From the NCBI RefSeq assembly GCF_029227915.1, contig NC_079875.1:11097001-11161000 (forward strand): DNA of 64,000 nucleotides, given 5' to 3'. This stretch comes from Hydractinia symbiolongicarpus. Lineage: Eukaryota > Cnidaria > Hydrozoa > Anthoathecata > Hydractiniidae. The notes beneath the pieces are model-generated. The model saw only the letters and a list, made by a program, of their open reading frames with translations. It made no database searches and was not told where the DNA came from. Below are positions 1 through 54,204 of the stretch, piece after piece. Numbering within the stretch: position 1 is the stretch's first letter; every line of letters begins with the position of its first letter. Both the position numbers and the translations under genes were made by a program.

Positions 1-189
1 AAGAACGGGAAGCCAACTAAAACTGAACTTCATTTGTACTCAAGGTAACTGAAATTGTACATTTCCTCGAAAATTTTAAATCCTTATACTTTTATTAGTA
101 AAAGTTTCGCTATTAGTTGAATTTTTAGGCATATTGGGCATTATTAAAGTACAGTAGCGAAATCTGAAGAAAAATTGTAATTATATTTT

Positions 190-1788
190 AATGGGTGCAA
201 GTACGACTGGTCATCTCAACCAATGTGGGCTGGATCAAGAGGTATCGGGAACCTCCTACTTACATCTGCAATCGATTTATCAGGCTCTTCATTCCATAAA
301 ATCGAGAAGTTCGCCAAATTGTTGAACTTAAAATTTCTGGGCAAATCCGTGTATTATGATCATCGCGGAAATTATGTTTATCCCGAAATCGATCACGCTT
401 GGCGAAAAAATCAAAGCGAGCAAATTTCGGAAATTACGGAGAGTGGAAGATCCCTGCAACTGGCATGGTCAATGCGACTCGCCTGGACACAACACTACCT
501 ATAGCACTGTCTCAGCTATGGATACAACAACAAGTCTTGAACTTCAAAATCGTGCATGTCAAGGCAAGTTCATCATCTTGTGTTCCGTAATGAATTTAAA
601 TGTGCACGTTTTTGATTTTTTTTCCTTCATTTATAGGAAGTTACAAGTTCTCAGGCAATGAAGAAGGAAGGATTTATACGTTGTATCGACGATATTCAGA
701 TGACACATAAACTACCCATCAGGTTGATTTCGACGGATAGACACGCGTCCATTAAAAAACTAATGAGGGCAGAGGAGCGATTTAAGGCCATTATACACCA
801 GTTTGACCCATGGCACATCGGCAAAGGCCTTATCAAAAAGTTGCTACAAGCTTCGAAAAAAAAAGGTTAGGATGAATATAATTTTCGCTCTAATCACTGC
901 AAGTAAGCAGCTAGTTAAGCAAGGTAATTTTAACACTACATCCTGTTCGTTACCTTAAGCTAGTATATCATTATAGATCTAAAGATACTCGCCAGATGGG
1001 CACCGTCTATCGTGAACCATTTATATTGGTCGATCGCAACGTGTAACGGTGAAGAGTTGGCAGAGCGATTTACTTCAGCAATCCACCATTCAGTCAACAG
1101 GCATGTGTTCGCACACAATAAATATTACAAGAAATGCGACCCTACATTATCAGAAGAAGAAGCACTTCGCAAAGAGTGGCTTGTAATGGGTTCGGCTGCG
1201 CACGAGAAATTGGTAAAAATCGTTACCCAACCAATGTTGGTAAAGGATCTACAGCAACTGACGGAGCAAATCCACACCACCCTACTGGAGGTTTTTTATG
1301 CGCTGAAGATCCGTTACCTACCCAAAGCCACCTACTTTAGAATGGAGAAGATGATTGCTGGGACTCAACTAGCAATATTAGACCATAACAACAACGTTGA
1401 TCGGGCTCGGGTAAGAATATTTAGGATTTTCAAGAAATAAACCATGTCACTATTTTTTTATAATTTTTTTTTCCTAACTAATGACTTTATTTACAACTTT
1501 ATTATAGAAGTGTACAACGGATGAGGAAGGCGAAAAATCCCGTTATTTCGAGTCGCATATTCCAAGCCCAATAAAAGGTTTGTTGCGAAAGTTGTACGAG
1601 AGGAAAAAAACTATGAATACTTGACCTACATTGTTCGCAAAATTTTAAAAAGAACTCAGTTGAAGAGAAACGCGACGAGTGGATCTCGTTTAAAACGCCA
1701 ATGTTCTTTACAGATAGCGCCTGAAGAACGACCTCCAAAAGAAGAGATCGTGGAAAAGAGTCAACAATTTAAAAGAATTAAGTTGTAG
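190..1788 (+). pseudogene. RNase H-fold transposase-like gene, broken by frameshifts
   Basis: This matches, from memory, an uncharacterised family widespread in cnidarians and fish that resembles a DDE transposase. In order the sequence shows a Cys/Trp block (GCKYDWSSQP), GNLLLTSAI, a QCDSPGHN block holding a likely catalytic Asp, then STDRHASI (second Asp), DPWHIGKG, NHLYWSIAT and a LLEVFYAL segment where relatives have an acidic residue. Coding runs in at least four exon-like blocks: about 190-556, 645-870, 979-1408 and 1507-1788. The first intron looks like GC-AG; the third has a clear gtaag donor near 1409 and an acceptor ending at 1506. There is a frameshift near 460-480, before the DSPGHN block, and another in an A7 run near 1602. 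The N-terminus is not visible. Its stop is only 31 bp from the stop of the converging P2X7-like gene. Family assignment is fairly firm; the transposase role is inferred. Confidence 0.65.
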
Positions 1789-3849: not shown

Positions 3850-4450
3850 CTCTACTTATTACCCCAGTCAAAATTAAAACAAAATTAAATAAAAATTAAG
3901 TTAGCAAGGGGGTTTGATCATACTAGGTCTTGTCTTTGGAGAGTGACGACTCCACTTATTACCCCAGTTAAAAAATAAATAAATAAATAAAAAATAAAAA
4001 ATAAAATATATTAGCAGGGGGGTTTGATCACACATGATCTTGTCTTTGGAGAGTAACGACTCCACTTAGTACCTGAGTTAAAAACAAAGAATAGCACAGT
4101 TGAACAGAAAGTGGTCAAAGTTAATTTTAGGAAGATAGGGATGTCTAGTTTCTGCTGATGACCGTCCGCGGACCTCTTCGAGGTGACCCAGCTAGACATC
4201 CAGGGTACTTAGGTTCAGAAATATGGGTCGAAACCTACCTGCCCTTGGTTAAAATTCTGTTCAACTTTTCAAATGTGTTGTGTCCTTTTTATTTTTTTCT
4301 ATATTTTTTTAATTTCTTGTAAAAAGGGAGAATTGTGCTTTTAGAGGCATATTCTCTAGAGCAGTAAAACCTCTAGCTTGTTTCCAAAGACCTAACAGGT
4401 TGAGTTCATCATTGCGGTGGCTTGCCACCTCTTTGTAAATTATTTTCTTA
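3850..4450 (+). repeat. Structured retrotransposon 3' tail, subfamily A, 5'-truncated copy
   Basis: Contains three successive modules ending in ttattaccccagt (near 3865, 3970 and a diverged one near 4075), each of the last two preceded by a gtctttggagagt(g/a)acgactcc segment. These are followed by a conserved body with self-complementary cctcttcgaggtga and aggttgagttcatcattgcggtgg, ending in tttgtaaattattttctt. The same body and end follow the USP-coding insertion at 6484-7892, so this is read as the 3' untranslated tail of the same non-LTR element, truncated before its coding region. Confidence 0.6.
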
Positions 4451-6484: not shown

Positions 6485-7370
6485 CATCTAACCCTGATTT
6501 TAGGAATAGCGGTCTAAAAAACTTGGGAAAAACATGTTATGCAAACTCCATCTTACAATGTTTTTATAACCTTCCAAAAGTTAAAGAAGCCATTTCTGTC
6601 AGCAAAACAACCTCAAAGTTAGGCGAAGCATTTGTATGTGTTCTTCAAAGTTTGGCTGTTTCTAGAAGTCCAGTTGATCCCTCCCATTTTTTGCGTGCTA
6701 TGAAACATCATATCTCAGCTGCAAAGGGATGTGCATTTAATATCTTTGCTCAGCACGACGTCCCGAGGTTCTTGAATATCTCCTACCTGGTCTGTCATTA
6801 GACTTTCCATTTCTTGGAAGTCTTTTTAGTATTGGCATCAAGACATCAACCACTTGCAATTCATGTCATATTACCAGCTCCTCAGAAGTTATAGCACCAT
6901 GCATCCAACTTTCTCTGTACCCTACGTTACAATCTTCCTTAGATAATTTTTTCGAAAGCGAGGAGTTGTCAGACACCAATGCCTACTTCTGCCATGTTTG
7001 CAACGCTCATCAAACTGCTCTAGTTAAAAAAGAGGTAGTGTCATGCGGTTCCCATCTCATTTTACAGCTAAAACGTTTTGCCAGTGCCAACGGCCTTGTG
7101 TCAAAAATTGTCTCTCGCATTACTGCTTACCCAGGTACCCTTTCCATACCTTTTACCGTAGATGGAGAAGTGAAATTTCGTAAAAATTTTCAATTAAGGG
7201 CTATTATCAACCATTGCGGCAACTTAAATAGTGGTCACTACACAACCATAGCCTTCGACCAAATGGTTCACAGGTGGATACATTGCAACGATAGAGCAGT
7301 AATTTTCTGTGATGACTGCCTTATTAACAGTCACGAGTCATATGTTTTCTTTTTAGAAGGGCTGAGGTAA
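6484..7370 (+). pseudogene. Ubiquitin-specific protease (USP/C19) domain, one frameshift
   Basis: The Cys box reads GLKNLGKTCYANSILQCF (family: GLxNxGNTCYxNSxLQ), with the nucleophilic Cys kept and the usual Asn replaced by Lys. Then come a QHDV segment, a zinc-finger-like pair (TTCNSCH near 6860 and FCHVCNAHQ near 6995), LILQLKRFA, and the His box SGHYTT followed by WIHCNDRAV and YVFFLEGL at the stop. The domain is compact, about 295 residues. Reading needs one frameshift near 6756-6762, right after QHDV. A catalytically complete USP would remove ubiquitin from substrates. Here it is embedded in a retrotransposon copy and followed by the element's tail, so it is read as element-encoded and not as a host gene. 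A second, better-linked copy lies at 9898-10771. Confidence 0.8.
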
Positions 7371-7892
7371 GAATATTTTAATCAAAATGAGTCATCAAGG
7401 CGGCTTGACTACACTCAGTCTTGTCTTTGGAGAGTGACGACTCCACTTATTACCCCAGTTAGAAAAAATAATAGCAGGGGGGTATGATCACACATGATCT
7501 TATCTTTGGAGAGTAACGACTCCACTTATTACTTGAGTTAAAAACAAAGAATAGCACAGTTGAACAGAAAGTTGTCAAAGTTTACTTTAGGAAGATAGGG
7601 ATGTCTAGTTTCTGCTGATGACCGTCCGCGGACCTCTTCGAGGTGACCCAGGTTCAGAGGTTCAGTAATATGGATCGAAACCTATCTGCCCTTGGTTAAA
7701 GTTCTGTTCATCTTTTTAAATGTGTTGTGTCCTTTTTATTTTTTTATATATTTTTTAATTAATTTCTTGTAAAAAGGGAGAATTGTGCTTTTAGAGGCAT
7801 TTTCTCTAGAGGAGTACAACCTCTAGTCAAAGACCTAGCAGGTTGAGTTCATCATTGCGGTGGCTTGCCACCTCTTTGTAAATTACTTTCTT
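7371..7892 (+). repeat. Structured 3' tail, subfamily A
   Basis: Starts directly after the USP stop. Two modules of the gtctttggagagtgacgactcc...ttattaccccagtt type (7430-7460, 7500-7540) precede the conserved body and the end tttgtaaattactttctt. Closely matches 3850-4450. Confidence 0.65.
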
Positions 7893-13689: not shown

Positions 13690-14317
13690 AAATGATAATA
13701 TCATAAGAAGCATAGCAAGGGGGTTCGACTATATCTTTCTTTTGGTGCGACGACCCCACTTTTTACCCCAGTCCAGTAGGGAGGTCAAGTTTGCTCACTT
13801 GGTCTGCAGGGTTAATGATCCTGCTGTACCCATAGTTATTCTTGTAAGAAGCTCTGCAAGGGGATGTGAAATTTCTCTTTCATGTCTTCGTGGTTTTACG
13901 CCCACGCATATCACCCCAGTAACTTCAGGCTGGTCCTGACCAAGGCTGGTCCTAAGCATCAATCACCTGTGTAAGGCTGCGTTTTGGGATCCCGTAACAC
14001 GTGTAAAGCTACTGCCAGGTTCACAAGTCCTGGCGCATAGGTAGTTGTTTGCCTCCTTTTTATAGTTTTTATTTATTTGTGTATATATGCGTTTTATGTC
14101 AATATATGTTGTTTTTTTTGTTTTGTTGCAATATTTGTATTGTCCAGAGGGTTGCTTTTTTTCAGTTAACTTGGTTGTACAGACCATCCTTGTAAAAGGG
14201 AGATCTTGCTTTGCATAGAGATCTTTAGAGGGTTTAACCTCTACCACTTAAATTAAGAGTCATTTGACTAGTCGAATCACTACAGCTTGCTGTTTTGTTT
14301 TCTCATAATCATAGAAT
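13690..14317 (+). repeat. Structured 3' tail, subfamily B
   Basis: Nearly colinear with 22610-23260: aagaagc(a/t)cag.aag.gggttcgacta, gcgacgaccccac, ttaccccagtccagtaggga, a gggttaa.gatcctgctgtaccc block, ttacgcccacgcatat.accccagtaac, tcaatcacctgtgtaaggctg, and the end ctagtcgaatcactacagcttg. No coding part is present. The pogo-like transposon begins three bases after this unit's end. Confidence 0.6.
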
Positions 14318-14319
14318 TA

Positions 14320-14360
14320 CCTTAAGGGAACTTATTTTGGCGGGAACTAATTTTGGCGGA
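14320..14360 (+). repeat. Left terminal inverted repeat of the pogo-like transposon
   Basis: 41 bp starting CCTTAAGGGAAC, identical to the reverse complement of 17756-17796. Preceded by TA. Confidence 0.9.
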
Positions 14361-14535
14361 CGAAGGAAATCTAAAAAAAATTTAATTTTGGCGGGAACTA
14401 ATTTTGGCGGATCAACGAAATTTTTAATTTTGGCGGGAACTTATTTTGGCGGGTGGCGGTTTTTTTTAATTTTGGCGGGAACTTATTTTGGCGGGTCAGC
14501 GGATTTTTTAATTTTGGCGGGAACTAATTTTGGCG
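14331..14535 (+). repeat. Left subterminal array of the transposon
   Basis: Five near-identical units, each containing gcgggaact(t/a)attttggcgg with short spacers (attttt-rich), spaced about 40-50 bp apart. Such subterminal repeats commonly bind the transposase or host factors. The frame at 14295-14540 across the array is an artefact of the repeat. Confidence 0.8.
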
Positions 14536-14633
14536 AGTGAAGGATTTTTTCAAATTTCAACGAAAATTTTCTTTGGTAAAGATGTAGAAATAAGCATTAC
14601 AAAGCAAAGAATTTTAAAACAAATACTAAAAAT

Positions 14634-16474
14634 CTACTCTTCTTCATCGTCTATGATAATGTCAAATGCATTCCGACTAAAGTCTATGTCATCCTCGTCA
14701 CGCGTGTACTCCTCTTCTTTGTCATCGTCATTTTCGACTCGCACGTTGATGAAGCTATCCTTTAATAAATCTGGCGCATTGATTATGTCGGTTATGGGCT
14801 GAGTAATTACACTATTGCTTTCTGGCAGCGGTGATAGATCTTGAAAAGGGTCAAGGGATTCAAGTGAAGTGGATCCCATGCGAACTGCGTCGTAAATTCC
14901 AGATGCTTTCCACCCATTCAAAACGACTTCACGGCCATCTGCCGAAGTGATATGGTTATAAAACTGGAGGAGCCAACTTGCATGAAGAGGCTTGATGGTG
15001 GTCAGCTTTAATTGAATATTTATATCTTCGATCTTTTTGTTAAGGGATAGCTCTTTCTCGATCTGTTTTGAATACCATTCAGTGAACAAATTTCTCATGA
15101 ATTGCTTGCAATGATTATTCACAGTAAGATCCAAGGGCTGGAATATATGTGTCATGTTACTTGGAACCAAAACCAGGAAGATGTTGTTCTTCTTCAGCAA
15201 TTCGGTAACTTCCTCAGTAATTTGTCCTCGAAAGACATCGAATATTAGAAGAGCAGCTTGCTTTGGGTTATTTAACTTCTTCCTCTGGTCTTCAACGTGC
15301 TTTAGAACGATCTCTTTGATGACTTTGATGGATTCTTGTGTATTGCTGTAGTGTTTGGGATTAACGCTTAGTGAGAACGATTCGGGGAATTCAAACTTTG
15401 GGAGGCTTTGATTTGTTTTCCCCCCATATATCAGTTGCATTGGCAGAAAAGAACCATCAAGCGTAATAATAAAGGTACCAGTAAGGCATCTTTTGTCGGA
15501 AGATCCAACGATAGGGACGGACGATGAACCCTTTTTCGCCATGGTGTGATTCATTCTTGGAACAAACTTAAGAGGTGTCTGGTCCAGATTCATAACAAGT
15601 TGGTGAGGGATGCTGTGTTGTTCGATGGTCGAAACAATATCGTGAAGAAATAGTAATTCGCACTCCTTTTTGGCTCCTTCAGTGATTTCAACTTTGGAGG
15701 TCGTTTTCATTCTTTTCTTGAAACCCATTCTCTTGAAGAGGCTTTTTGCCCAACTGTTATCAATTTTAATATGCCCCAACTCAAATTGAGGGTTTCGTGA
15801 TATTAGAGCTTTCGCTGCAGCGGTTGCAACTGTTCTTGAAACAACACCTCCTCGATTTCTCAGTGCAATTAAAAATCTTTGTACCATCTCATCTAGACTG
15901 CCAAGGAACAGAGGTCTACCGCGTTTCAAAGGAACAAATTTGGTTACCACGCTACGTTTTTCTCGGGTTGAATCTTTCAGCTCTTTTTTGTAAAGATTGC
16001 CAAATCTTCGAGCTGTACTCTCACTTAACGGCCTGTCTTTGGTTTGAAACTTTGTGATTGCAGCCGCACCACCATGAATCGCAACATATTTTCCGATATC
16101 AAATCTTTCTTTTTCTGACCAACGGTTGTATGATTTTTTGCCACTGGATTTAACATTTTCAGTCGCGTCTGTAACAGCTTCGTAGTCTAACGAACCAAGG
16201 GATGATTCTTGCTGGAAGTCAGTTGGTTGTGGGCCTAAAATGAATAAAACGAACCACTATGTAATTGCGAATTTTGACCAAAAATTAAAAATTTTCAAAC
16301 AAAGAAAGAAACTTCTTCGCAGGTAGGTATAACAAAAAAAAACATCAAAGAGAAATACTTACTTTGTTCCCTAGAACTGTTTGAAGGTGTTTCGTCTGAA
16401 GTTTTTTCCTTTTCAGCGGCCCTTTGTTGAGCTTCTTTCTCTTGTAATTTAGCTAACTTCCTGATGTAAGACAT
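14634..16474 (-). CDS. Pogo-like (Tc1/mariner superfamily) DD35D transposase, two exons
   Basis: Exons 16474-16363 and 16234-14634 join in frame across a 128-bp GT-AG intron (donor a|gtaagt, acceptor ttttag), giving 570 residues. The N-terminus is Lys/Glu-rich. A helix-turn-helix region follows (RWSEKERFDIGKY, about residues 70-120), then a second HTH/CENP-B-like DNA-binding segment (GRPLFLGSLDEMVQRFL to GFKKRMKTTSK, about 142-216). The DDE_1 catalytic domain has D255 (NLDQTP), D370 (LLIFDVF) and D406 (IFQPLDLTVN); D370 and D406 are 35 residues apart. The C-terminus is very acidic (DDEEE at the stop), as in pogo/Tigger proteins. It should cut at the terminal repeats and insert at TA. It is transcribed away from the HIRAN gene across a shared 355-bp spacer. 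No lesion was seen. Confidence 0.88.
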
Positions 16475-16829
16475 TTTGAAAGCCGGGAGATAAAAAAGGA
16501 AACGTAAGTTATCTGTATCCTGTATATTTACTCGAACATAAACATTCCATTCACTTGGCCTATATTTACACTAAAAATCGAACAAAAACATTCTTTTTTT
16601 CTTGGCTAAGGCCCGTTTAGACTACCCAATCGAACAAAAACATTCTTTTTTTCTTCGCTAAGGCCCGTTTAGACTAACCAATCGAACAAAAACATTCTAT
16701 TTAATTGGGAAAGTTCGGTCTACACTGACAAATAGAACAAAAACGTTCTATTTTCATGCTAGGCAATTAAAAAATCGATCGATTGACATTTTTGTTTTTC
16801 ATCAGAGCTAGAAAAGAAAAGACGTCCAT
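16475..16829. promoter_or_regulatory. Bidirectional promoter region with 52-bp tandem repeats
   Basis: The 355-bp spacer between the divergent transposase and HIRAN starts holds at least three tandem units of about 52 bp beginning aatcgaacaaaaacattct at 16576, 16628 and 16680, with a fourth diverged copy at 16731. The first two share ggctaaggcccgtttagact. Position suggests a shared regulatory region, or internal transposase-binding sites. No TATA box is clear. Confidence 0.55.
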
Positions 16830-17480
16830 ATGGCTTACAACAAGACGTTCGAGTTTACAGCTGCTGTCAGAGGATTCCATTATTATAAAACTTATTGGAA
16901 ACCTGAGGAAAATCAATCACTGGACTGCTTTCATGAGAACAACAATGTTTTCGATAGATTTGCAATCAAAGTTTGTGAATTCGGAAATGACAAACCAGTT
17001 GGCCATTTACCCAAAGAAATCTCAAGGGTTACAAAATTTCTTCTGGACAGAGGAGCGTCTATGAAATCCACGTTGACAAGTGTACACTATCGAAGATCAC
17101 CTCTCGTTCAAGGAGGCTTGGAGATCCCCTGTAAAATAACTGTTACTTTACCAGGGACAGTAAACAATCTTTTGGTTCTTGCAAGATACCAACAACTTGT
17201 AGAAGCCTTGTATACAGAGCCGAAAGAGGAATTGATTCTTGGTTCGTTCTTACATATTGCAGTTATTTTAGATGTCGTGGTTCCAACCGAAGAGAGACCA
17301 AAGCGTAAAAAAAATACAGCCAAAAGCCAAAGCAAAGAGACGAAAAAGCAAAAAGATATTCGAAACTTTTTTGGAAACACCTCAGCTGCACCAGCCCCAA
17401 AAAGGCAAAAAGTTAACAACAAACCTAAAAAGTCGTCACCATCGTCAAGCAAGGACTTAGAAATCATAAATATTGATTAA
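16830..17480 (+). CDS. Transposon-encoded HIRAN-domain protein with PIP box
   Basis: An intronless 216-residue protein. Residues about 5-130 form a HIRAN domain: AAVRGFHYYKTYWKPEE, CFHENNNVFDRFAIKV, VGHLPKEISRVTKFLLDRG and a HYRRSPLVQGG segment. HIRAN domains (as in HLTF and Rad5) bind free 3' DNA ends, especially at stalled forks. The tail is basic, with RPKRKKN and PKRQK as likely nuclear signals, and contains QKDIRNFF at 174-181, an exact match to the PCNA-binding PIP-box pattern QxxIxxFF. No helicase or RING domain is present, so it is a short adaptor-like protein. Inside the transposon it probably helps transposition at replicating DNA or processes ends; this role is inferred. A related fragment lies at 19068-19307. 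Confidence 0.85.
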   Translation: MAYNKTFEFTAAVRGFHYYKTYWKPEENQSLDCFHENNNVFDRFAIKVCEFGNDKPVGHLPKEISRVTKFLLDRGASMKSTLTSVHYRRSPLVQGGLEIPCKITVTLPGTVNNLLVLARYQQLVEALYTEPKEELILGSFLHIAVILDVVVPTEERPKRKKNTAKSQSKETKKQKDIRNFFGNTSAAPAPKRQKVNNKPKKSSPSSSKDLEIINID

Positions 17481-17587
17481 AAATTATCTTGTATTAGAGG
17501 TTTATTATGACATAATATTTCTAGCGCAAAGGTATATTTCTAAAAGATATAAAAAATTGAAAAAAAGTTGATTTTTGTCGATTTTTT

Positions 17588-17737
17588 AAGGGGAACTTAT
17601 TTTGGCGGATCAACGAAATTTTTAATTTTGGCGGGAACTTATTTTGGCGGGTGGCGATTTTTTTTAATTTTGGCGGGAACTAATTTTGGCGGGTGAGTAA
17701 AATATTTAATTTTGGCGGGAACTAATTTTGGCGGATT
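17588..17737 (+). repeat. Right subterminal array of the transposon
   Basis: Three to four units of attttggcgggaact(t/a)attttggcgg in the same orientation as the left array, followed by the inverted right terminal repeat. Some spacers match the left array closely (gatcaacgaaattttt). Confidence 0.8.
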
Positions 17738-17755
17738 TTGCCCCAATCCGCCAAA

Positions 17756-17796
17756 TCCGCCAAAATTAGTTCCCGCCAAAATAAGTTCCCTTAAGG
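17756..17796 (-). repeat. Right terminal inverted repeat of the pogo-like transposon
   Basis: Perfect reverse complement of the left 41 bp, followed by TA. Confidence 0.9.
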
Positions 17797-18029
17797 TACA
17801 TTTAAGTCCCTCTAGCAATTCGGCATAAATTTTATGTATCTAATCAGAATTTTCTCATTCGAAAACCAACTTCACATGCTCTCGCAAGCTATTGCAACCC
17901 ATGTTAATAACGGAAAGATCCCTTCGAACATGTGCGACCGATATTTATACAAAACGCCTATAATCTTTATTAATACGTAGGACAGGGTTTCTGTGCTATG
18001 AAGTCTAGTTGCACGGTCAAACCCTTACG

Positions 18030-18507: not shown

Positions 18508-18523
18508 GCTATTTTAATGGGAG

Positions 18524-18672
18524 AAATTACGTGAGACAAATTTGCGCGAATTTTGCGAATTTGCCCAAAGTTCGCGAAAATAAATTAAAAAACAACCAAT
18601 TATTGGCATTCGCGAAAATAAATCCCCTAAACCTTTATCAATTTGGCCATTCCCGAAAATAAATCTCGTAAT
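18524..18672. repeat. Array of ttcgcgaaaataaat units
   Basis: At least three spaced copies of cgcgaaaataaat or cccgaaaataaat, plus gcgcgaattttgcgaattt. The layout resembles the subterminal array of the pogo-like transposon but with a different motif. It lies 400 bp from a HIRAN gene remnant and is read as the end of a related, decayed transposon. Confidence 0.45.
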
Positions 18673-19067
18673 TTTTTTTCAATAAAATGATAAAAAATGA
18701 AAAATATTTCAAAAATTTTCAGATTAAAGAAAGTTCACGTTTCATATAACGTAGGCTTACGGGGATATATGCTCTAAAAGATTTCGAATTGATGAAGTCG
18801 TAGAAGTTCAGAGGTACGTGTCAAGCGGAAGAAAAATATTTCGAATAATTATTGTATACATGTATGTATTTTTGGATCAACAAAATCAATAAAAATGTTT
18901 TTCTCCTTCGAAGAAAAACTGCTTTGTTGCTTGCTTGCTGCTTGTCGAAACATATTTCGAATGTCCAACGTTTTTTCTTTTTTTTTTTCACGACTTTCAA
19001 TTTTGGTTCGTGCGCTTGCGTCTTAGTAGCACTTCTTTCTGCGGGCTGTTAAAAAAGAGTCATTTCA

Positions 19068-19307
19068 TCAGCAAGAATCGAACCAAGGATTTGCGCTCCC
19101 TCCTTGCACGAGTGGAGATCTTCTGTAATGCGTTTCAAAACGAATAGCAGTAATATCGGCACCTCTTTCCATTGAAAACTTCGTCACCCTAGTGAGCTCT
19201 CGCGGTAGATGACAGACTGTGTTACCTTCTCTGTTGCATGTTCTGATTGCAAATACGTCAAAAGGATTGTTCAACGTTGGCTTCATAATAAAGGCAACAT
19301 AAGCCAT
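19068..19307 (-). pseudogene. HIRAN-domain gene remnant
   Basis: About 65 residues align with the second half of the 16830-17480 HIRAN domain: NPFDVFAIRTCNREGN, LPRELTRVTKFSMERGADI and HYRRSPLVQGG are shared, with many substitutions. The N-terminal part and the basic/PIP tail are missing, and the frame diverges after VQGG. It marks a second, older HIRAN-bearing element. No transposase remnant was found next to it. Confidence 0.7.
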
Positions 19308-20814: not shown

Positions 20815-21070
20815 GAGTAATGACTCCACTTATTATATCAATCAAAAATAAAAACGTAAGCACATACTGTTTTTTTGGAGAGTGACGATTCCACTTATTA
20901 CCTGAGTCAAACAAAAAGAATAGCAATGTTAGACAGAAAAGGTTTACTTTAAGAAGATTGGAAATTCTAGTCTCTGCTGATGACCGTGTGTGGATCTCTT
21001 CGAGATGACCAAGCTAGGCATCCAGGGTACTAAGGTTCAGAAATATGGGTCGAAACTTTCTATAAATAAT
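20815..21070 (+). repeat. Structured 3' tail, subfamily A, decayed
   Basis: Follows the USP remnant. Retains gactccacttattat, ttggagagtgacgattcc, ttattacctgagtca and the atctcttcgagatgacc.agctaggcatccaggg body, then stops matching near 21070. Confidence 0.6.
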
Positions 21071-22609: not shown

Positions 22610-23260
22610 AATCATAAGAAGCTCAGTAAGTGGGTTTGACTATGTCTTTTCTTTGGGTGCGACGACCCAACTTTTTACCCCAGTCCAGTAGGGATGCTAA
22701 TTTTCCTCACTTGGTCTACAGGGTTAACGATCCTGCTGTACCCATAGTTTTTCTTGTAAGAACCTCTGTGGGGTGTGTGAAATTTCTCTTTTATATCTTC
22801 GTTGCTTTACGCCCACGCATATTACCCCAGTAACTTCAGGCTGGTTCTGACCCTAAGCTGGTCCTAAACATCAATCACCTGTGTAAGGCTGAGTGTTGGA
22901 TCCCGTAACACATGTAAAGCTACAGCTAGGTTCACAAGTCCTGGGGCGCATAGGTGGTTGCTTGCTTCCTTTTTATAGTTTCTATGTATTTGTATAAATT
23001 TATGTTTAATGTTAATATATGTTTCTTTGTCGAGATGTCGTTCTTTTACGGTGTCTCTTTAGTATTATTGTGTGCACATTATTTGTATTGTCCAGAGTGT
23101 TGCTCTTTCAATTACCTTGAGTGTACAGACAAACCCTGCAAAAGGAAAATCTTGCTTTGCACAGAGATAGCGTTTAACTTCTACTACTTTAAATAATATA
23201 GTCATTAGACTAGTCGAATCACTACAGCTTGTTGTTTTGTTGTCTCTTAACCATAGTTTG
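22610..23260 (+). repeat. Structured 3' tail, subfamily B, second copy
   Basis: Colinear with 13690-14317 over its whole length, ending at ctagtcgaatcactacagcttg. No coding sequence precedes it. Confidence 0.65.
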
Positions 23261-23732: not shown

Positions 23733-26700
23733 TTAGGTTACGTTTAGTATAATACGACCATTGATATATTGGAAAAAAGTTTCTTCTCGAAAGTTGGTTT
23801 TAAAACTGTCAAGGCTTCCTTGCTTCATTGCAATTATGCGCTGGGATAGGACGGCTGAAGAAAGGCACTTGTGAAAGTAAGCCTTGGTATCGACCGTCGC
23901 GTTATCGTATAGCGATTTGTTCCTGCCAAACCATATGGCTTGGTATGCGCAGGTCCGCAGTGTTTCCAATGGGTTGCGGACTTTGTCGCTTTGGTCGTGG
24001 AATCCTGTAATCACGTATTGTTGGGTTTTAGTAGGGTCTAATTTGGTGAAGAAGCGGGATAAAAAGAAGAAGTGAAACCATAGGTTTCTAGAGATTTGGC
24101 ATGCTAGAAAAATGTGGAACGCAGTCTCTTCACTTTTGTTGCACCTGGTGCACATCGGACTATCCTGTGGGACATTCCGAGATTGTCATTGGTGCAACAT
24201 TTTTCGTGTGGTGACGCGTCGATGCAGAAACTTATAGATAACATCTGAGGTTGGTTTGTGTATGTAATGGTTGTACATGAAGGTGAAGATTTTCTGCCAC
24301 GGTTGGTTTCCAATCTCTCTTTCCCACAGTCTGTGGCAGGGTTGTCCGGCGTTGAGCCGGTCTGAGATAAATTTTTCAGGAGGTTTTTGTAGGAGGAGAT
24401 AAAAGCATTTTGCGGATAGTGCTGTTATTTTTGACGTCGGATTCTTTTGTGTCGGTGTGAAAATTGTAAGTGTGTCCGCCGCCGACGTTGTGGCTTGTGT
24501 GCATATGGCATTGTGCCATTGCCGCGGCAGGCACTCTTTCAATTTTAAAAGACGTTCTTGTGTACAAAGTACGTTTGTTAATTCACTGACTTGCTCATGA
24601 GAGAGGAAGCCAGGCGTAACTGTGTACGTAATGTCTTCGATGTTTGTGATGTTTTTGGTAACCCATTTAGGTGGGGTTACCATTTTCTGTGACCCTGTGT
24701 TGTTATCGACAGTTGTTATGAAAGGGTTCCAGAAGAAAGGTTCCTTCTGGATCTCTTCAACTGTGGTTGGTTGTGGTCTTTTGTTGTCGGTTAGCTCTAT
24801 CCAGTCAGATATTAGGGCGCGATGGAAAGGTGGTAGGTTTATGGTGTTGTACGGTGACAAGAAAGTCTTGAATACATGCTTGCCAAGCGGATAGTCTCGG
24901 TATTTGTTGAGAACATATAGCATGAACGTTTTCCAAGAGCCCTTGACACGGTTGTTGTACAAGTCTCTGATCCAGGTTAATCTTGTGGCGCGGAATTTGC
25001 GTTGAATATCGATGACGTTGAGGCCGCCGTGTTTTACTGGTAATGCGATGATGTTTTTATCAATGCGGGTCTTCTTCTGGTTCCAAAAGAATTCCCAAAT
25101 GGCGTCTCGAATTTCTCGTAGTGTTCGTTTCGGACACGTGTATATGAAGGATGGGTAGCACAGTTTGGCCACGGCGAGTTGGTTAATGACAATTTTTCTT
25201 TCTTTTAATGAGAGATTCCGGTATTGCCATAACCGTAGAGTCTTTTTAAATGACTCGACCCTCCGCGGCCAAACTGTTTCGCAGTGGTTGGCGTTACCAA
25301 AGTCCAACCCTAGTATGCGAAAGCTGTGGTTTGTCCATTTATATATCCCCGGTGAGTCAGTTCTGCTCCGGTTTCTCCCTAGCCACAGGTCCTCGCATTT
25401 TTCAGGGTGAACCTTGGCACCAGAAGCTTGTTGATAGTTTTGGAGTATTTGTTGAAGTGGATGAAGAGACGAGGTACTGGTGAGAAAAAGTGTGGTGTCG
25501 TCTGCGTACTGTGAGACTTTGCATTGTTCATTCTGGTAGGTTATCGGCTTGATGTTTTGGTCATTTCGGATGGCCGCTGCCAGCACCTCCGCTACAATTA
25601 CGTAGAGAAGCGCGGAGAGCGGGCATCCTTGTCTGACGCCTCTAGTGGTTTTAAAGTTTCGAGACAGTTTGCCGTTGGCTTTGATGCAAGCAGTAGTGAA
25701 AGCGTTGTTGTTTTTACGAGTTTAATGAGATCGGGCCCGAAACCGAATTGCTTTAGTACTCGTTCTAGGAACGGTCGGTCTACCCTGTCAAACGCTTTCA
25801 CTTGGTCGATGGTTAGGATGTACGCATCCAAGTCACGGTCGTTCGCGTACGTTATAACGTCGCGGATGAGAGACATGTTGTGGTAGATGTTTCGCCCTGG
25901 TACATCATATGTTTGATCGTGGTTGATGATAAGCGGGAGGACTTTCAAGAGGCGAGCCGCTATGGCTCTTGTGAATATCTTATAGTCAGCGTTTAAGAGG
26001 CTGACCGGGCGCCAATTGGAGAGTTGTTTTAGGTCTCCTTTTTTTGGGAGACAAGATATCACAGCTTCGCGTTGGGAAACGGTAAGGTTTCCCGTGCGAA
26101 AAGCCTCCTGGAAGACCTCCGTAAGGTCGTCCGCGATGTCATTCCAGAATTTTTTGTAGAATTCTGCCGGAAGGCCGTCTGATCCGGGGGACTTGCCATT
26201 GTTTAATTTTTGTAGTGCGCGGTAGAGTTCGTCGCGAGTTATGTTTCCTTCACAGAAGGTCTTCTGCACTGGTGTTAGTTTAGGCTTCAGTCCTGCTAAA
26301 AAGATGTCTTGTATTTTCAGGTCTGTGTCTTCCGCAGTGTAGTGTTGTTCGTAGAACAGCGACATCTCTTGCAAGATGTCGTCTGTATTGTCCGCAAAGG
26401 TTCCGTCGTCTCTCCGCAGAGTGTTGATGGTGGTGTTGTTTCTGCGGATTTGTTCTAGCCTTAGAAAGTATTTGGTACATCGCTCACCTTCTTCAACCCA
26501 CTGCGCCTTTGCCTTTACAACGTGGATTCCAGCGCGCTCCTCCTCTATTTTTCGTACCTCACTTGTGAGATACTCGATTAGATGAGGATCGGCCGGTTTC
26601 CTCGCTGCATTGGCGAGGCGCTTTTGTAGGGAATGAAGGCGGCGGTTCTCGCGTTTCCGTCTGTTCTTGGCGAATTTAATCGAGAGGCGTTTGATGCCCG

Positions 26701-27736
26701 CTTTACACTCATCCCACCACTGAAGGCGGTCTGAGTATAATTCTTTTTTCGATTTCCATTCGTCGATGTGGGTCACGATAGTGTCGACATATTGTTGGTT
26801 TTGTAGGAGTGTTTGGTTTAGCATCCACATACCTGGTCCGTGATCTACGCCAGAGGCGCAGATTCGGACATGGACAGAGGCGTGATCAGAGTGGCAAAAA
26901 GGTCGAATATTGGTTTGTGTAACTCTCTGACGTATGCCGCGGCTCGTATAGACTCTGTCTATTCTTGTACGATAGCCCGCGGTGCTGGTAAAGGTGTATC
27001 CGCGCTCTGTCGGGTGCTGTACTCTCCAAATGTCTTCGACGTCGTGAAGACGTTTCAGACTTTGGAGAGTGTGGATAGAAACCTCCTGTTTGTTGTTGTT
27101 ACTTTCTCTGTCAATAGTCGGCTCTTCTGTCATGTTGAAGTCGCCGAGCACTACAATGTTGTGTTGATCGCGTTTATGCTGTTGTATTTTTTGGGAGAGT
27201 TCTGTGAAGAAACTCTTTCTCGCTTGAGCAGCGCTTTGTGTGGTGGAGGATGGCGGGGCATAAATGCCGACGCAAAGAAAAATTGTAGATTGGCAGACCA
27301 CTTGGACGATAATATACCGTCCATGTGGATCCGCCTCTAATAGATCCGGTTGGCAATTCCCTTTTGACAAAACAGCCAGTCCGGCGTTCGTTCCGTGTTG
27401 GTTGTGCGCACGTGTGACCGTTCCTGCCCAGTTGGCAGTAAGCTTCTGTTCTAGGTGTTTGTCCAGATGTGTGTCGACGGGGGGAAAAAAATCGTCTTTT
27501 GCCTGTTGAAAAATATGGCATATTGTTTGGAGTTTTTTCCGAGACTTGGGGTCTCGAAGTCTGTTCACGTTTACGGTACATATTCCCAAATCGTTCTTCA
27601 TTATAAATCGGTAAAGATTGTGGGGAATATGTACAAGCGTGAACGGGCTGGTAGCGCGGGAAAGTAGGAGAGTCCTTTTGCATCTGAGCGCCTGTAAAAG
27701 CGCGCGAAGATAGGAGTTGTCCTTTTGCGTCCGCAT
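23733..27736 (-). pseudogene. LINE ORF2: APE endonuclease and reverse transcriptase, two lesions
   Basis: The APE endonuclease (about 27600-26880) shows ICTVNVNRL, DTHLDKHL, VVLGDFNMTE, RIDRVYTS and SDHASVHV. The RT follows, with NNGKSPGSDGLPAEFYKKFW, NWRPVSLLNADYKI, LTIDQVKAFDRVD (motif A), RQGCPLSALLY and SQYADDTTLFL (motif C, YADD), then LGLDFG, a thumb-like region and a C-terminal C-x2-C-x8-H-x4-C finger (CTRCNKSEETAFHIFLAC). A single A deletion near 25715 shifts the frame between motifs A and B, and an in-frame TGA near 24188 precedes the zinc finger. Otherwise it is full length, so the copy is young but disabled. The reading begins upstream of the first endonuclease motif; the exact start is uncertain. 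Confidence 0.85.
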
Positions 27737-33184: not shown

Positions 33185-35090
33185 TTTATGTTATTTGTTG
33201 GCTCGGTTTGGTGGAGGAAGTAGGATGAGTCGTGTAATGATGTACCTCGTTGGTAAAGAGTGAAGGGCAGTAAAGAGGGATAAGGTGGAGAAGAAGAAGT
33301 AGAAATGTAGAAATGCAGGGATGGAGGCGGTGGTTTGGCTTTGTATAATTGCTAGATTTTCCTCTTTGTTCCTTTTCAGAAATTCTTTGTTGCTATTTTC
33401 AGTTTCTCATTTTATTATTTTATTTTATTTTATTTTTTATGAATTTATTCCGAAAATTTTATCTACGTACTATCGTTTATTAATTGAATGGGGGTTGGTA
33501 TTCTGTCAAACGTGGGGTAATAGTTGACTTTGTTTATTAAGTAGTTTTTGATGCCTTTATTATGTTCTTCCACGTTTTGGAGCCATTTTCTTGCAAGTGC
33601 AATAATTCTATTTTTTATAGTAGGGACATTTGCAATTTGAAGCAGCAGGCTATTTGGTCTACTTCTGCTGAGGCCGTAAATGTAGCGAAGGTACTTTGTT
33701 TGTATTACTTCTAGTTTTTTTAGGTTTGTTTCATTTAAAGTTATCATGGCAGTAGCACCATACTCCATTTTGCTTCTAACGTAGCAGTTGAAAAGATACT
33801 TCATTACGGGGACATTTGGACCGAAGGTGTTGTTTTTTAGTGTATACAGTATACTGGTTTTGTGTTTTATGGCTTTTATTGTATTGTTTATGTGTGCGTT
33901 GAAGTTGAAGTATTCGTCGAAGATGACGCCAAGAAATTTGGCTTCCGATCTTTTTTCTATATTTTCATTTTTTATTTTCAAACTCATACATGCATTCTGT
34001 CTTTTTTTTCTAAAGTTTATTTGGGTTGACTTGGTAGTATTTAAACTATCGTCTATTTTATCCAGTTGAGTCTGGAGTGTTTTTTTCATCTGGGATGTGT
34101 TTTTATGGGAAAACCAGATTGCAATGTCATCCGCAAATTGTGTTTGGATCACTTGGCTTGTTGGGATAGGGAGGTCATTAACAAATAATATATATAGGAT
34201 AGGGCTCAAAGGGCTTCCTTGGGGAACTCCAAAATTGGGATGGAATGCTATTCCTTCTACCCCATCAACTACTACCCTGATCTCTCTATTTGTTAGGAAA
34301 CTTTTTATCCAAAACAGAGTTTTCTTGTTGATATTCATTTTTTGAAGTTTCCATATGAGTCCGCTATGCCACACTCTATCAAAGGCTTTCTCTACATCCA
34401 AAAAGATGGCAGTGGAGGTTCTGTTTCTATTAAAACCTTGTGTTACATATTGACTAAGTCTGAATATGTGATCTTGAGTGGAATGACGTTTCCGGAACCC
34501 ACTCTGATTTTCGTTCAGCAAATTGTTTGTTTCTGCCCATTCTTGAATTTTTTTTGCCATAATTTTTTCTAATAATTTTCCTAAGTTACTTAGGAGGCTG
34601 ATAGGTCTGTAGTTCTTTGCTAGCCTATGGTCTTTTCCCACCTTTGGAATCATTGTCACTAATGCGAATTTCCATATTTTTGGATGATAACCTTGGCTGA
34701 GACAGCCATTAAAAATAGGAAGGAGGATATCTGGGAGACTGTATTTGATGGCTTTTATTAGTTTGTTTCTGATTTTATCTGGGCCACTTGCTTTTTTAGG
34801 GTCAATGTCATTTATGATGGTTACTATATCCTCGCGGGAAATGTTTTCTTCACAGTTTGGGTAGTCAGAGGGATCAGATTTATCGTTTTTCAGTTCATCT
34901 TCGATAATTTTTTTTACGTCCGCTCTGTATGTAGGTGAATCGAGCTTCTCGTTGCAGAGGGTGTCTTTTAGGAGGGAAGTAAAGATCTTACATTTTTCAT
35001 CGTTTGTTTGGTATTTTTTGTTCTCATGTTTTAAAGTTGGTGTTGTTTTCTTTTCATTTTTATTTGGATCTATCCTTGGTAACGTTTACA
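33185..35090 (-). mobile_element. Jockey/CR1-like LINE inserted in BEL/Pao, 5'-truncated
   Basis: Interrupts the BEL integrase between its zinc-binding N-terminus (ending near 35093) and core (starting near 33180). Contains the C-terminal half of ORF2 including the RT but no endonuclease, plus a roughly 280-bp 3' region. This shape is typical of 5' truncation. Confidence 0.7.
33463..35070 (-). pseudogene. LINE reverse transcriptase, 5'-truncated but otherwise open
   Basis: The open frame extends upstream of the first Met at 34659 to about 35070 without a stop. Motifs are DPKKASGPDKIRN, YRPISLLSNLGKLLEKI, TAIFLDVEKAFDRVWH (motif A), GVPQGSPLSPILYILFVND (motif B) and TQFADDIAIWF (motif C, FADD), then FLGVIFDEYFNFNAHIN and the thumb/connection to a stop near 33465. 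No frameshift was noticed, so the insertion is fairly young. The endonuclease domain is absent. Confidence 0.8.
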
Positions 35091-38755: not shown

Positions 38756-39224
38756 TCTCAAGTGTTTATGTCTGAGGTTGGAAAGCTTTTTTGTTTCCAG
38801 GTGTGCTGCTTTTCACTCTTTGTCACAACCTTTCTAAGGACTGGGTTCCAAGTCTACCTTTCTTAGCCCTGGGCTCTGTGTCAGTAGGTAAAAACAACAA
38901 CGATACGATTTGTTAGTTGTCGACTCTTCTTTTTCCAACGTTTAACAAAAGTTCTTGGTTTTGGCAGATGGTGTCAATGAATGTGGCTTGTGTCTCGCAG
39001 GAGGCAGGGGATGCTTACTCAAGGGCCCGCAGCAGATCCTAAGCATGAGTGAATTTCGCCAATCCTCATGTTTCCACATTCATAGGTGTTTGTTTCAGTA
39101 CAGCCGAAATGCATTAGCTTTTCGATCATCCCTGTAAAGGGGAGAATACAGAAGTTTTCCAGTTGCTTCTTATTCTTTGGAGAGAAACCTCCTTTTTTCA
39201 TTAACATCTCTGTCTTGAAAGGCT
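38756..39224 (+). repeat. Dispersed repeat, copy 2
   Basis: Close match to 18030-18507 across its length. This copy extends further left (38521-38755), with a gggaaagacca direct pair, and right into unmatched sequence. Confidence 0.6.
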
Positions 39225-50649: not shown

Positions 50650-52170
50650 CTCAGCATTCCCTGCGAACAAGCTTCACGCTCTTGATATTTGAAGCAGAAT
50701 GGGGTTTTAAGCACAAGGCTTTGGGGCAGAGAGAATAAAGCAAAAGGCTCAGCGATAAAGAAGGCTTTTAGGAATAACCCCTATTCAGCTGGCAAAGCCT
50801 TACTTAATCTTAATACCCTCTTGTTTAATGTTTTTAAATCGTGTTTAAAAAATTGTGTTGTACCTGTTCAATGGCGTTATGCCCGTGAAATTTATATTCC
50901 TAAATCAAAAACTCCTATGGAGTCCAACATAACTGACTTTCGGCCTATCGCACTTCTAAATGTCGAAGGTAAGCTTCTATTTAGCCTTGTATCAAGGCGG
51001 TTGGAAGCTCACATTATAGCCAACAACAAATTCTTCAATACGTCTATCCAAAAAGGTTGTATAGAGAAACTTCGTGGGTGCTGCGAACATATGTCAATGG
51101 TTTGGTCGGCACTAAAAGACGCTCGCTCAGCAAAGTCAGATTTGGCAACCATCTGGCTAGATATTGCAAGTGCGTATCCCACAATTCCTCACAGACTTAT
51201 CTTTTTCGCTCTTCAGCGTTACGGTGTCCCGCAACATTGTATTACTTTTATTAAAAACTACTATATCGGCATATACAGCAAATCTTTTTCTGAAGATGTC
51301 CCAAGCAATTGGCATAAACATATGCGAGGTATATTTGCTGGCTGTACACTATCTATCATTCGTTTTTTAGCTGGCATAAGCATCATCCTAGAATATACGC
51401 TAGAAGCATCTGTACCAAGGTTTATCACATCAAGCAAAGTGTCAATTCCATTACTGAGAGCTTTCATGGACGATATAAACTTGATGTCATCGTCTGTTTG
51501 CGGTGCGCAAAAGCTATTAACCAGGTGTGCTACCGCTTTAAAGTGGGCTGGTATGGTATTCCGTGCCCACAAGTCACGCAGCATAGTAATCGTAAAAGGC
51601 AGGTCCTTAAATTCTACACCCTTCTCAGTTCAGAAGCCTTTAAATCCAACAGATTTTTCTTCATTTATACCCTCTATCCATTCCATGCCAGTACGATTTT
51701 TAGGTCGTATCATAGACGGTTCTATTTCCGATAGAAAAGCTATCGATGAGCTTGGAGAGAAACTATCAGCAGGGCTTTTTACGATTGACAAATCCTTTTA
51801 CAAAAGTACTCAGAAACTGTGGATCCTTCAACACCTTCTTGTCCCACGTATCCAGTGGCCTTTGCTCATTTACGAAGTTTCAATGTCGTATGTCAATACT
51901 CTCCAGCAAAAGGTATCTTCTTTTATAAGGAAATGGCTGCACCTTCATCGCACTACCACTAATGTTTGTTTATACTCAGCCTGCTCACCATGTCCTTTGC
52001 CAATAAAAAGTCTAACGTCCATTCTTAAATCTGCTAAAATAAGCGGACACTTACTGCTTAGATATTCAAAGGACCCCTAGTATCAGCGGCACCACCAACA
52101 ATAAAGGCAGGAAAGTGGAGTGTAACTGCCACAGTTACGACGGCAGAGGTAGAAGTAAAAGTGAGGGCAA
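50650..52170 (+). pseudogene. R2/NeSL-like non-LTR retrotransposon reverse transcriptase
   Basis: A 463-residue open frame from 50689 with AREIYIPKSKTP, NITDFRPIALLNVEGKL, ATIWLDIASAYPTIPH (motif A), FAGCTLSI (motif B), RAFMDDINLM (motif C, FMDD for YxDD), RFLGRIIDGSISD, and ILQHLLVPRIQWPLLIYEVSM in the thumb. It ends in a frameshift near 52077 that would otherwise continue as LVSAAPPTIKAGKW. From memory this RT group is the one whose C-terminus carries the ELTxPxE REL endonuclease seen at 9388-9890. The first 38 residues are not family-like, so the true start is lost. Confidence 0.7.
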
Positions 52171-52612: not shown

Positions 52613-54204
52613 ATGGAGGCGTCAGGAGAAAAAACACTTAATACAGATATTTTATCAGCTTGTTCAACACCTAAAAACAGCTTTTTTCAAAGCTTTACTT
52701 CACCAAACAAAATCGAAGTTTCCTTAAACAATTTATCTACAGATTTCACCGTAGAGAATGCTACAAACATTGAGAATTTGCCAGGAACTTCAACAACAAA
52801 CGCTGCAGCTGGGGGAGGATTTACATGTTGTGTACCTTTATGTTACAACAACTCAAAAAGAAACAGAGAATTGTCGTTTTACGTCATTCCAAAAGATGAA
52901 GGTTTAAGAAAGACTTGGCTTTCAAAAATAAGTATAAAAAACTTTAAACTAACATCAGGCCATAGAGTATGCTCTGCTCATTTTAAAGGTGGTAAAAAAA
53001 CGTACATGAACAATATTCCAACGATTGTACCAAAAACTATAGCACCTACACCGGTTAAAAAAAGAAACACCATGACTAGTCTTGGTTTAAAAAGAAAGCT
53101 ACCTTCCCCTGAAAAACCTAAAGATCCTGAGCTGACTGTAGAAGAGGCATTACAGCAAGAGATTCAAAAATTGGAAGCCACCATAGCTAATATGAAAGTT
53201 GAAATAACAAAAAAAGAAAACTCATTATTAGCAGAGATAAATTCTTTACAAACAGAAGTTGATGAAAATAAATTTACAGTGGACAGATTTAAACACAACA
53301 CTGCACATTTTAAATTTTACACTGGTTTTGAAAGCTACGAAATGTTTAAACTTGTACTTGAATATTTACAACCAGCTGCTGACTCTCTAATATACTGGGG
53401 ATCAAATACTAACATTGAAAACACAAAAACCTATAATGGTAAACGTGGGCGATCCAGAGCTACAACAGCTGAAACAGAATTTTTTATGATTCTTATTAGA
53501 CTTCGCTGTGGATTTCCTATTGAAGATATGGCAATACGATTTACCATGTCGACTAGTAATGTAAGTCGAATATTCATTACTTGGATAGACTTTTTGCACA
53601 CTCAACTGAGAGTACTTCCTATATGGGCTTCAAAAAAAACAGTAGCAGAGACAATGCCAAAATGTTTTAATGATTTATATCCCACAACACGTGTTATAAT
53701 AGACTGTACAGAAATATTTACAGAGATGCCTTCTTCATACCGCAGCCAATCAGCTACTTTTTCCAGCTATAAACATCACAACACTGCTAAAGGATTGGTA
53801 GGGATTGCACCAAGTGGAGCAGTTACATTCGTATCTGATTTATATGCTGGAAGAAGTAGTGACCAAAAAATTACTCGACACAGTGGAATTTTAAATTTAT
53901 TAGAACATGGTGACTCGTTAATGGCTGATCGAGGATTCGATATTGAAGAGGATTTACCTGATGGAGTAACTCTTAATATACCTGCGTTTCTAAAAGGTAA
54001 AACACAACTAGATTTGGGAGAAGAACTTGAAACTAGAAGAATTGCTTCTGTAAGAGTTCATGTGGAGAGAGCAATTAATCGAGTTAAAAACTTTAAAATT
54101 TTACAGTCAATATTTCAATGGCACCTGATTTAAATAAAGTCTGGGTAATTTGCTATTATTTAGTCAATTTTCTTCCACCACTTATAGCACAGAATGAGGA
54201 ATAA
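52613..54204 (+). pseudogene. THAP-domain DDE transposase (ISL2EU type), one C-terminal frameshift
   Basis: The 506-residue frame has a THAP C2CH zinc finger at about 70-140 (C73, C77, C120, H123, with IPTIVP after it), a coiled coil at about 175-220, a helix-turn-helix (FTMSTSNVSRIF), and a DDE_Tnp_4-like core with IIDCTEI (D364), FVSDLYAGRSSD (D409), MADRGFDI (D439) and HVERAINR (E485). The frame stops at 54133. The expected C-terminal block (MAPDLNKVW to LPPLI) follows in the next frame up to 54204, so a small deletion near 54115 truncates the protein after the catalytic Glu. Confidence 0.85.

Follow-up and report, generated by a model that had tools for sequence, protein, structure and literature searches.

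A pogo-type transposon of Hydractinia symbiolongicarpus combines its transposase with a conserved, divergently oriented HIRAN gene

Transposons of the pogo superfamily, among them the Passer- and Fot-like groups, have one or two open reading frames (ORFs) that encode the transposase (Gao et al. 2020, PMC7386202). The element described here, TE1, resides in a 64,000-nucleotide stretch of Hydractinia symbiolongicarpus DNA (contig NC_079875.1, positions 11,097,001-11,161,000; the entire stretch is termed the window). It resembles the pogo elements in its DDE_1 domain, its DD35D triad, a TA duplication, short terminal inverted repeats (TIRs) and a length inside their range of 1.2-5.2 kb, and adds a conserved gene for a non-transposase protein, the HIRAN protein, as well as arrays of 42-bp units. 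The pogo-type transposon of which TE1 is an intact copy has two genes and was recently amplified. In Drosophila, the pogo transposase itself carries the motif for binding of PCNA and interacts with that protein, and its PCNA-interacting protein (PIP) box is shared with Tigger and Lemi1 (PMC5371812). The TE1 lineage has a motif of this type in the separate HIRAN protein. Extra ORFs are also known from the ciliate Tec and TBE elements of the Tc1/mariner group, which differ from TE1 in that the additional genes encode a recombinase (Tec) or a zinc-finger protein and a protein of unknown function (TBE), in the TIRs of about 700 bp of Tec and in a DD34E triad (PMC7325037). HIRAN domains with the residues Y72 and NN90,91, present also in the TE1 protein, occur in HLTF/Rad5 (PMC4666394). 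Unlike HLTF/Rad5, the TE1 protein lacks SWI/SNF and RING domains and is a stand-alone polypeptide of 216 amino acids (aa) with a basic tail, a PIP-like box and a SUMO-binding-like end.

TE1 is intact and extends from 14318 to 17798 of the window, about 3.5 kb including a TA on either side. Its outermost 43 nt (14318-14360 and 17756-17798) are 100% complementary and consist of a 41-bp TIR (left, 14320-14360, plus strand; right, 17756-17796, minus strand) and a TA target-site duplication (14318-14319 and 17797-17798). Inside the TIRs follow subterminal arrays, on the left about four 42-bp units of ATTTTGGCGGGAACTWATTTTGGCGG (14385-14537, plus strand), on the right four 42-bp units (17591-17734, plus strand). 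Both arrays run in one direction, so that the right one is inverted relative to its own terminal repeat. The 18-base core GGGAACTWATTTTGGCGG was present at 12 sites in the window when up to three mismatches were allowed, all of them within TE1, compared with a mean of 0.13 in shuffled sequence. The cores of the arrays are mostly spaced by 42 bp, and 16 bp separate the two cores of the terminus. An empty site of this copy was not found within the window. In the following, the TE1 family is designated family A, B, C and D are related families in the host genome, and TE2 and TE3 are relics. A TA followed by CCTTA forms the termini in families A and B and in TE3, and the family B element (stretch L032:482-3928) has a TACCTTAAGGGAA terminus with TA on both sides. 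A piggyBac-like TTAA target duplication was rejected, because TE3 reads TTAT at this position, yet keeps TACC...GGTA; the TACCTTAAGGGAA termini of family B and the TACCTTAT termini of TE3 both speak against it.

The transposase gene is encoded on the minus strand by two predicted exons (exon 1, 16363-16474, starting with MSYIRKLAKLQ; exon 2, 14634-16234, with the DDE_1 domain and the DD35D triad), which are separated by a predicted GT-AG intron read from the sequence only (16235-16362). The frame is free of stops and frameshifts over 570 aa. Aspartates are located at positions 255, 370 and 406, the second and third of which are separated by 35 residues. This spacing is that of Passer and Fot within a range of 33-40 for the pogo groups (PMC7386202, PMC7325037). 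DDE_1 is recognized by Pfam with an E value of 3.8e-10 (40.1 bits, cut-off 22), and the DNA-binding domain HTH_Tnp_Tc5 stays below its cut-off (14.5 versus 22.2 bits). By catalytic domain, aspartate spacing and the combination of TA with short TIRs, the element is assigned to the pogo group. The transposase ends on AFDIIIDDEEE in family A (window 14634-14670, minus strand) and on AFDFIIDDECNE in family B, both of which have an acidic, SUMO-binding-type look; the family C protein differs. Upstream of the transposase gene and in divergent orientation lies the single-exon HIRAN gene (16830-17480, plus strand; Pfam PF08797), and the shared promoter region between the two contains four repeats of about 52 bp (16545-16750). 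What the initial annotation had read from this locus, i.e., perfect 41-bp TIRs, TA flanks, subterminal arrays, a lesion-free two-exon DD35D transposase and an open HIRAN gene divergent to it, was recovered in full, with the splice remaining a prediction.

The host genome (480.9 Mb, 76 contigs; the window is C1:11097001-11161000) was searched with both proteins. The HIRAN protein yielded 150 matches (150 of 784 candidates scored), exon 2 of the transposase yielded 82 (81 of 1098 candidates scored). At least 22 HIRAN copies, TE1 included, are 100% identical over aa 1-216, stop-free and of one score; two further family A copies among the matches listed are shortened (99-100% identity). For exon 2, at least 19 matches show 100% identity over residues 1-532, 17 of which share the top score, and one more among those listed is 100% identical over residues 1-232. 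These identities support a young age of family A and a recent amplification. Family B is represented by at least ten HIRAN copies with 55% identity, one score and an open frame of 236 residues. Genes were regarded as paired when HIRAN was found within 6 kb of a transposase match; note that matches rather than elements were counted, so that a broken copy can count twice, and that the counts are lower bounds. Among the matches listed, the family A transposases, at 100% identity, had a HIRAN partner in 20 out of 20 cases, always divergent and always with a gap of 598 bp. The proportion was 8 of 10 at 59-62% identity (all eight divergent) and 31 of 36 at 45-58% (30 divergent), which gives 59 of 66, 58 of them divergent, for all listed transposases with at least 45% identity. 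Families whose proteins share about 45-60% identity have the gene pair in common as a stable unit. A lack of HIRAN in full-length copies, which the initial annotation had asked about, was not observed: none of the 20 listed family A transposase matches is without HIRAN, and 19 of them are full-length in exon 2. Conversely, no scored transposase was found within 6 kb of 4 of the 24 family A HIRAN copies listed (C5:5657639, C12:23576263, C14:18503414 and C3:20058411) or of 3 of the 10 listed family B copies with the same score.

Selection was assessed by comparison with the family B element, the family C element and the family D HIRAN gene. Stop-to-stop open frames comprise 236 (B), 234 (C) and 214 (D) residues for HIRAN and 551 (B) and 549 (C) for the transposase. 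Between families A and B, the proportions of nonsynonymous (pN) and synonymous (pS) differences are 0.306 and 0.747 for HIRAN (204 codons; 70/56/118 differences at the three codon positions) and 0.258 and 0.845 for the transposase (525 codons; 181/105/321). Ratios of the corresponding substitution rates (dN/dS) are mostly not given, because dS was saturated in five of six HIRAN pairs and in all three transposase pairs; the HIRAN ratio for A and D is 0.214. The HIRAN genes of TE1 and the relic TE2 encode the same amino acid at 32 of 58 aligned codons (position differences 21/14/34) and give a dN/dS of 0.165; the amino-acid identity was reached in none of 20,000 neutral simulations. This test is conservative, since the relic also decayed after its death. 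Both HIRAN and transposase are therefore under purifying selection between families, and the scenario of a drifting HIRAN frame beside a constrained transposase does not apply, as pN is below pS for both genes in the A-B comparison and the TE2 ratio is low. Taken with the pairing (20/20 and 59/66 of the matches listed), this agrees with the initial proposal of the HIRAN protein as a second, conserved component of the element.

The two relics differ in what is left of them. TE2 is located 0.7 kb from TE1 and retains a right-type terminus with an array (TTCGCGAAAATAAAT-like at 18571, 18609 and 18650; 18510-18690, minus strand) and a HIRAN relic (19086-19303, minus strand). The latter was detected by tblastn within the window (match 19271-19086) with 54.7% identity to TE1 over 64 aligned positions and an E value of 8.6e-16. 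The match of a host repeat to 38760-39224 ends at about 18510, where the TE2 terminus with its array begins. The terminus and the right end of TE1 are colinear, and their ungapped score of 23 was attained by none of 5000 dinucleotide shuffles and none of 3000 stretches drawn at random from the window. Free local alignment is reached by 10 of 300 shuffles, so the strong result is that of the colinear test alone. No credible transposase piece was detected beside TE2 (best E 0.51). In 21 stretches of 10 kb sampled from the genome, a single transposase relic was present, in stretch L008, and eight further stretches contained none. This relic belongs to TE3, which is 2229 bp long, has TACCTTA termini and contains a HIRAN-like frame, though a weak one, at the corresponding divergent position. 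The TE3 frame is 31.9% identical to HIRAN across 91 positions (E 0.005 within one locus); with a TE1+TE2 profile its E value is 0.19, yet it ranks first among the remaining ORFs. Pfam HIRAN gives 12.5 bits for TE2, which is below the cut-off, and no match for TE3. The TE3 frame is accordingly taken as weakly supportive only. Past the terminal TACCTTA, the ends of TE1 and TE3 showed no significant likeness (103/300 and 183/300 shuffles), and a candidate intergenic motif shared by the two, AAAACATTC, was rejected, its alignment being reached by 37 of 300 shuffles. Relatives were not found in viral contigs, prokaryote contigs or phages; in the viral contigs, two short matches resembling TIRs were attributed to chance upon reading of the sequence.

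The genome contains a second multicopy HIRAN family. It appears in 16 rows with one score of 35.2 bits among the Pfam matches listed (e.g., C2:20239069, C9:21816921 and C12:8536769), has an open frame of 192 residues in 12 of these 16 and is not among the listed rows of the HIRAN protein search. Judged by eye, the unpaired pogo transposases have no member of this family within 6 kb. Another mobile element of the genome may have acquired HIRAN.

The HIRAN gene of TE1 exceeds the Pfam HIRAN cut-off (E 7.8e-8; 32.5 versus 24.7 bits). The family B and D loci also do so in a profile search of the genome, and the family C locus used here was not among the 91 Pfam HIRAN matches listed (150 of 251 candidates scored). 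The domain spans aa 8-86 (16851-17087, plus strand), with the numbering counted by hand from an alignment. In HLTF, Y72 and Y93 of the domain enclose a dinucleotide and NN90,91 are required; of the alanine changes tested the NN90,91 double exchange alone fully impaired function (PMC4666394). Family A HIRAN keeps the counterparts of Y72 and NN90,91, and Y93 is replaced by phenylalanine. Beyond the domain, the tails of families A-D can be aligned, with invariant columns that include DIR, a terminal I-x-ID and a single upstream proline. The sequence QKDIRNFF of TE1 (aa 174-181; 17349-17372, plus strand) conforms to the PIP consensus Qxx[ILM]xxF[FY] (PMC5371812), as does QKDIRSFF of family B, i.e., two of four families. 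DIR-x-[FM]-[FL] is common to all four tails. At its very C-terminus the TE1 protein has a SUMO-interaction-like IINID (17463-17477, plus strand). The respective ends are EIINID (A), KIITIDSD (B), TVIVID (C) and TIVID (D), and a pattern of [IV]-x-ID type within the last seven residues is present in four of four tails and in none of 20,000 shuffled-tail sets. Of the window's 270 ORFs with 60 or more aa, 35 have a hydrophobic core of the terminal type in the last 12 residues, and only one, the HIRAN gene, combines it with three or more acidic residues. The family A, B and C transposases contained no PIP box by either the strict or the loose pattern, exon 1 being covered for A only.

On the basis of these sequence features and by analogy, we consider the chances to be about even that the HIRAN protein is a trans-acting adaptor that couples transposition to replication forks. 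The transposase alone would cut and join. The pocket of the HIRAN domain would bind a single-stranded 3' end, the PIP-like motif PCNA, and the C-terminal motif SUMO, perhaps SUMO on PCNA; basic stretches would carry the protein into the nucleus. Thus equipped, it would deliver the transposase, or else the excised element, to forks or to newly replicated DNA, with the consequence that a daughter copy is kept or that new sites are replicating ones. A separate protein would thus assume the contact with PCNA that in Drosophila is made by the pogo transposase itself. A precedent is TnsE of Tn7, an accessory transposon protein that binds recessed 3' ends, has a motif for the beta sliding clamp and directs insertion to forks (PMC5371812), much like the role proposed here. 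TnsE is bacterial, and the HIRAN protein, known here from its domain and motifs alone, is likened to it by function. The steering to replicating DNA appears to be favoured by the PIP-like and SUMO-binding-like motifs. In yeast Srs2, the C-terminus carries a PIP-like motif and, behind it, a SUMO-binding motif of the I-I-x-I-D type, and reads SUMO-PCNA. The proposed SUMO contact draws on motif likeness and on this tentative parallel; Srs2 itself is a helicase without HIRAN. Tentatively, one may go further and suppose that the lineage has split its machinery into a transposase and a dedicated fork reader (HIRAN for 3' ends, PIP for PCNA and the terminus for SUMO-PCNA), an independent counterpart of TnsE, with E2F-like sites at the ends adding S-phase timing.

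Several observations weigh against the adaptor reading. The PIP-like box is degenerate in family C (PDIRVMF) and family D (HDIRDML). The pattern Q..[ILM]..[FY][FY] is met by 3 of the 270 window ORFs of at least 60 aa, the HIRAN gene included, and a PIP pattern arises in 0.64% of shuffles of the HIRAN protein. The motifs were noticed by eye, and the starts of the tails as well as the terminal pattern were chosen after viewing; in 352 of 20,000 shuffled sets, the four tails have some 3-mer in common. Likeness of the HIRAN tails is weak between TE1 and TE2 (61/4000 shuffles) and not significant between TE1 and TE3 (573/2000). A single-sequence structure model of the HIRAN protein reached a predicted local distance difference test score (pLDDT) of 35, too low to be of use for judging the beta-barrel fold, and a PDB search with the tail gave no match. 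Finally, among the matches listed, transposases of 36-43% identity have a scored HIRAN in just 1 of 16 cases. The single paired match (C5:23468070) is a short fragment of an element that gives a 51% match right next to it; the group proper therefore stands at 0 of 15, and inspection of the 91 Pfam HIRAN matches listed (150 of 251 scored) showed no partner within 6 kb either. Related transposases may hence do without HIRAN. The group may lack the gene altogether or, as the case of TE3 (42%) suggests, carry a HIRAN that has diverged beyond scoring.

The same domain could instead serve at the element's own ends, where the protein would hold or protect 3' ends at the excision break or the joints and recruit repair, PCNA being needed for gap filling only. 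In line with this, the HIRAN domain of HLTF holds a single-stranded dinucleotide, the key residues are kept here, and PIP boxes are also typical of gap-repair proteins. On the other hand, this function alone does not explain the conserved SUMO-binding-like end, and among the matches listed no scored HIRAN partner accompanies the less similar transposases of the genome; we regard it as somewhat unlikely. An unlikely explanation is that the HIRAN protein is a regulator or a counter-defence factor which blunts silencing or damage signalling by binding PCNA or SUMO, or represses the shared promoter. The four tandem 52-bp repeats in the divergent intergenic region, the SUMO-binding-like ends and the HIRAN copies without scored transposase (4/24 in family A and 3/10 of the same-score copies in family B, among the matches listed) would fit such a role. 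However, a HIRAN domain with conserved DNA-pocket residues would be odd for pure signalling, and HIRAN-only copies are also expected from ordinary deletion.

Coupling to replication might also reside in the arrays rather than in the HIRAN protein, if TTTTGGCGGGAA and TTTTCGCGGGAA in the terminal arrays act as E2F sites and thereby tie the timing of the element to S phase. Nine exact TTTTGGCGGGAA sites are present in TE1 and none was found elsewhere in the window. Families B and C (stretches L032:482-3928 and L033) have TTTTCGCGGGAA or TTTTCGCGAGAA as core, and the E2F consensus is degenerate at the position changed between TTTTGGCGGGAA and these cores. Yet end repeats are more simply explained as transposase-binding sites, and the TTTTTACCGACGAA-type repeats of TE3 contain no E2F core. 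We regard this explanation as very unlikely. Hardly any credence can be given to a roleless passenger captured once by a single copy: HIRAN does occur elsewhere in the genome, including a possible host HLTF gene (C3:13870189, E 2.0e-20) and the separate multicopy family, but the pairing (20/20 and 59/66 of the matches listed), the constant orientation and the purifying selection argue against it, and on the pairing counts and selection results a chance HIRAN ORF or a single capture was rejected.

In 5.39 million open-access papers, no precedent for a HIRAN-bearing transposon was found, the seven candidate papers being judged by title and start of abstract and subscription papers, bioRxiv, Repbase and Dfam lying outside the search, and HIRAN was not found in the main texts of two large pogo surveys (PMC7386202, PMC7325037). 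It is possible that HIRAN-bearing pogo-type elements have been described before. The gain of copies by eukaryotic cut-and-paste transposons is usually explained by movement during replication, and little is known of the molecular link. For pogo-type transposases, the functional relevance of the PIP box has been called unclear (PMC5371812). If the HIRAN protein does couple transposition to forks, some 20 near-identical intact copies would carry the presumed link as a separate gene that can be deleted, mutated or swapped, which would make the question of replication coupling directly testable. The HIRAN gene could also serve as a part for transposon tools.

Other mobile sequences are present in the window. 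Another DNA transposase gene, with a THAP domain and DDE_Tnp_4, is located at 52613-54133 (plus strand). Non-LTR-type (lacking long terminal repeats) reverse-transcriptase ORFs with RVT_1, one of them with an endonuclease domain, are found at 24186-27736 (minus), 33463-34659 (minus) and 50689-52080 (plus). ORFs of an unclassified gene or element lie at the edge (181-1440, plus strand); the two that were searched gave no Pfam match. Dispersed host repeats with recurring words like GACTCCACTTATTACCCCAGT occupy 3871-4084, 7362-7544, 13736-13856, 20815-20919 and 22614-22768.

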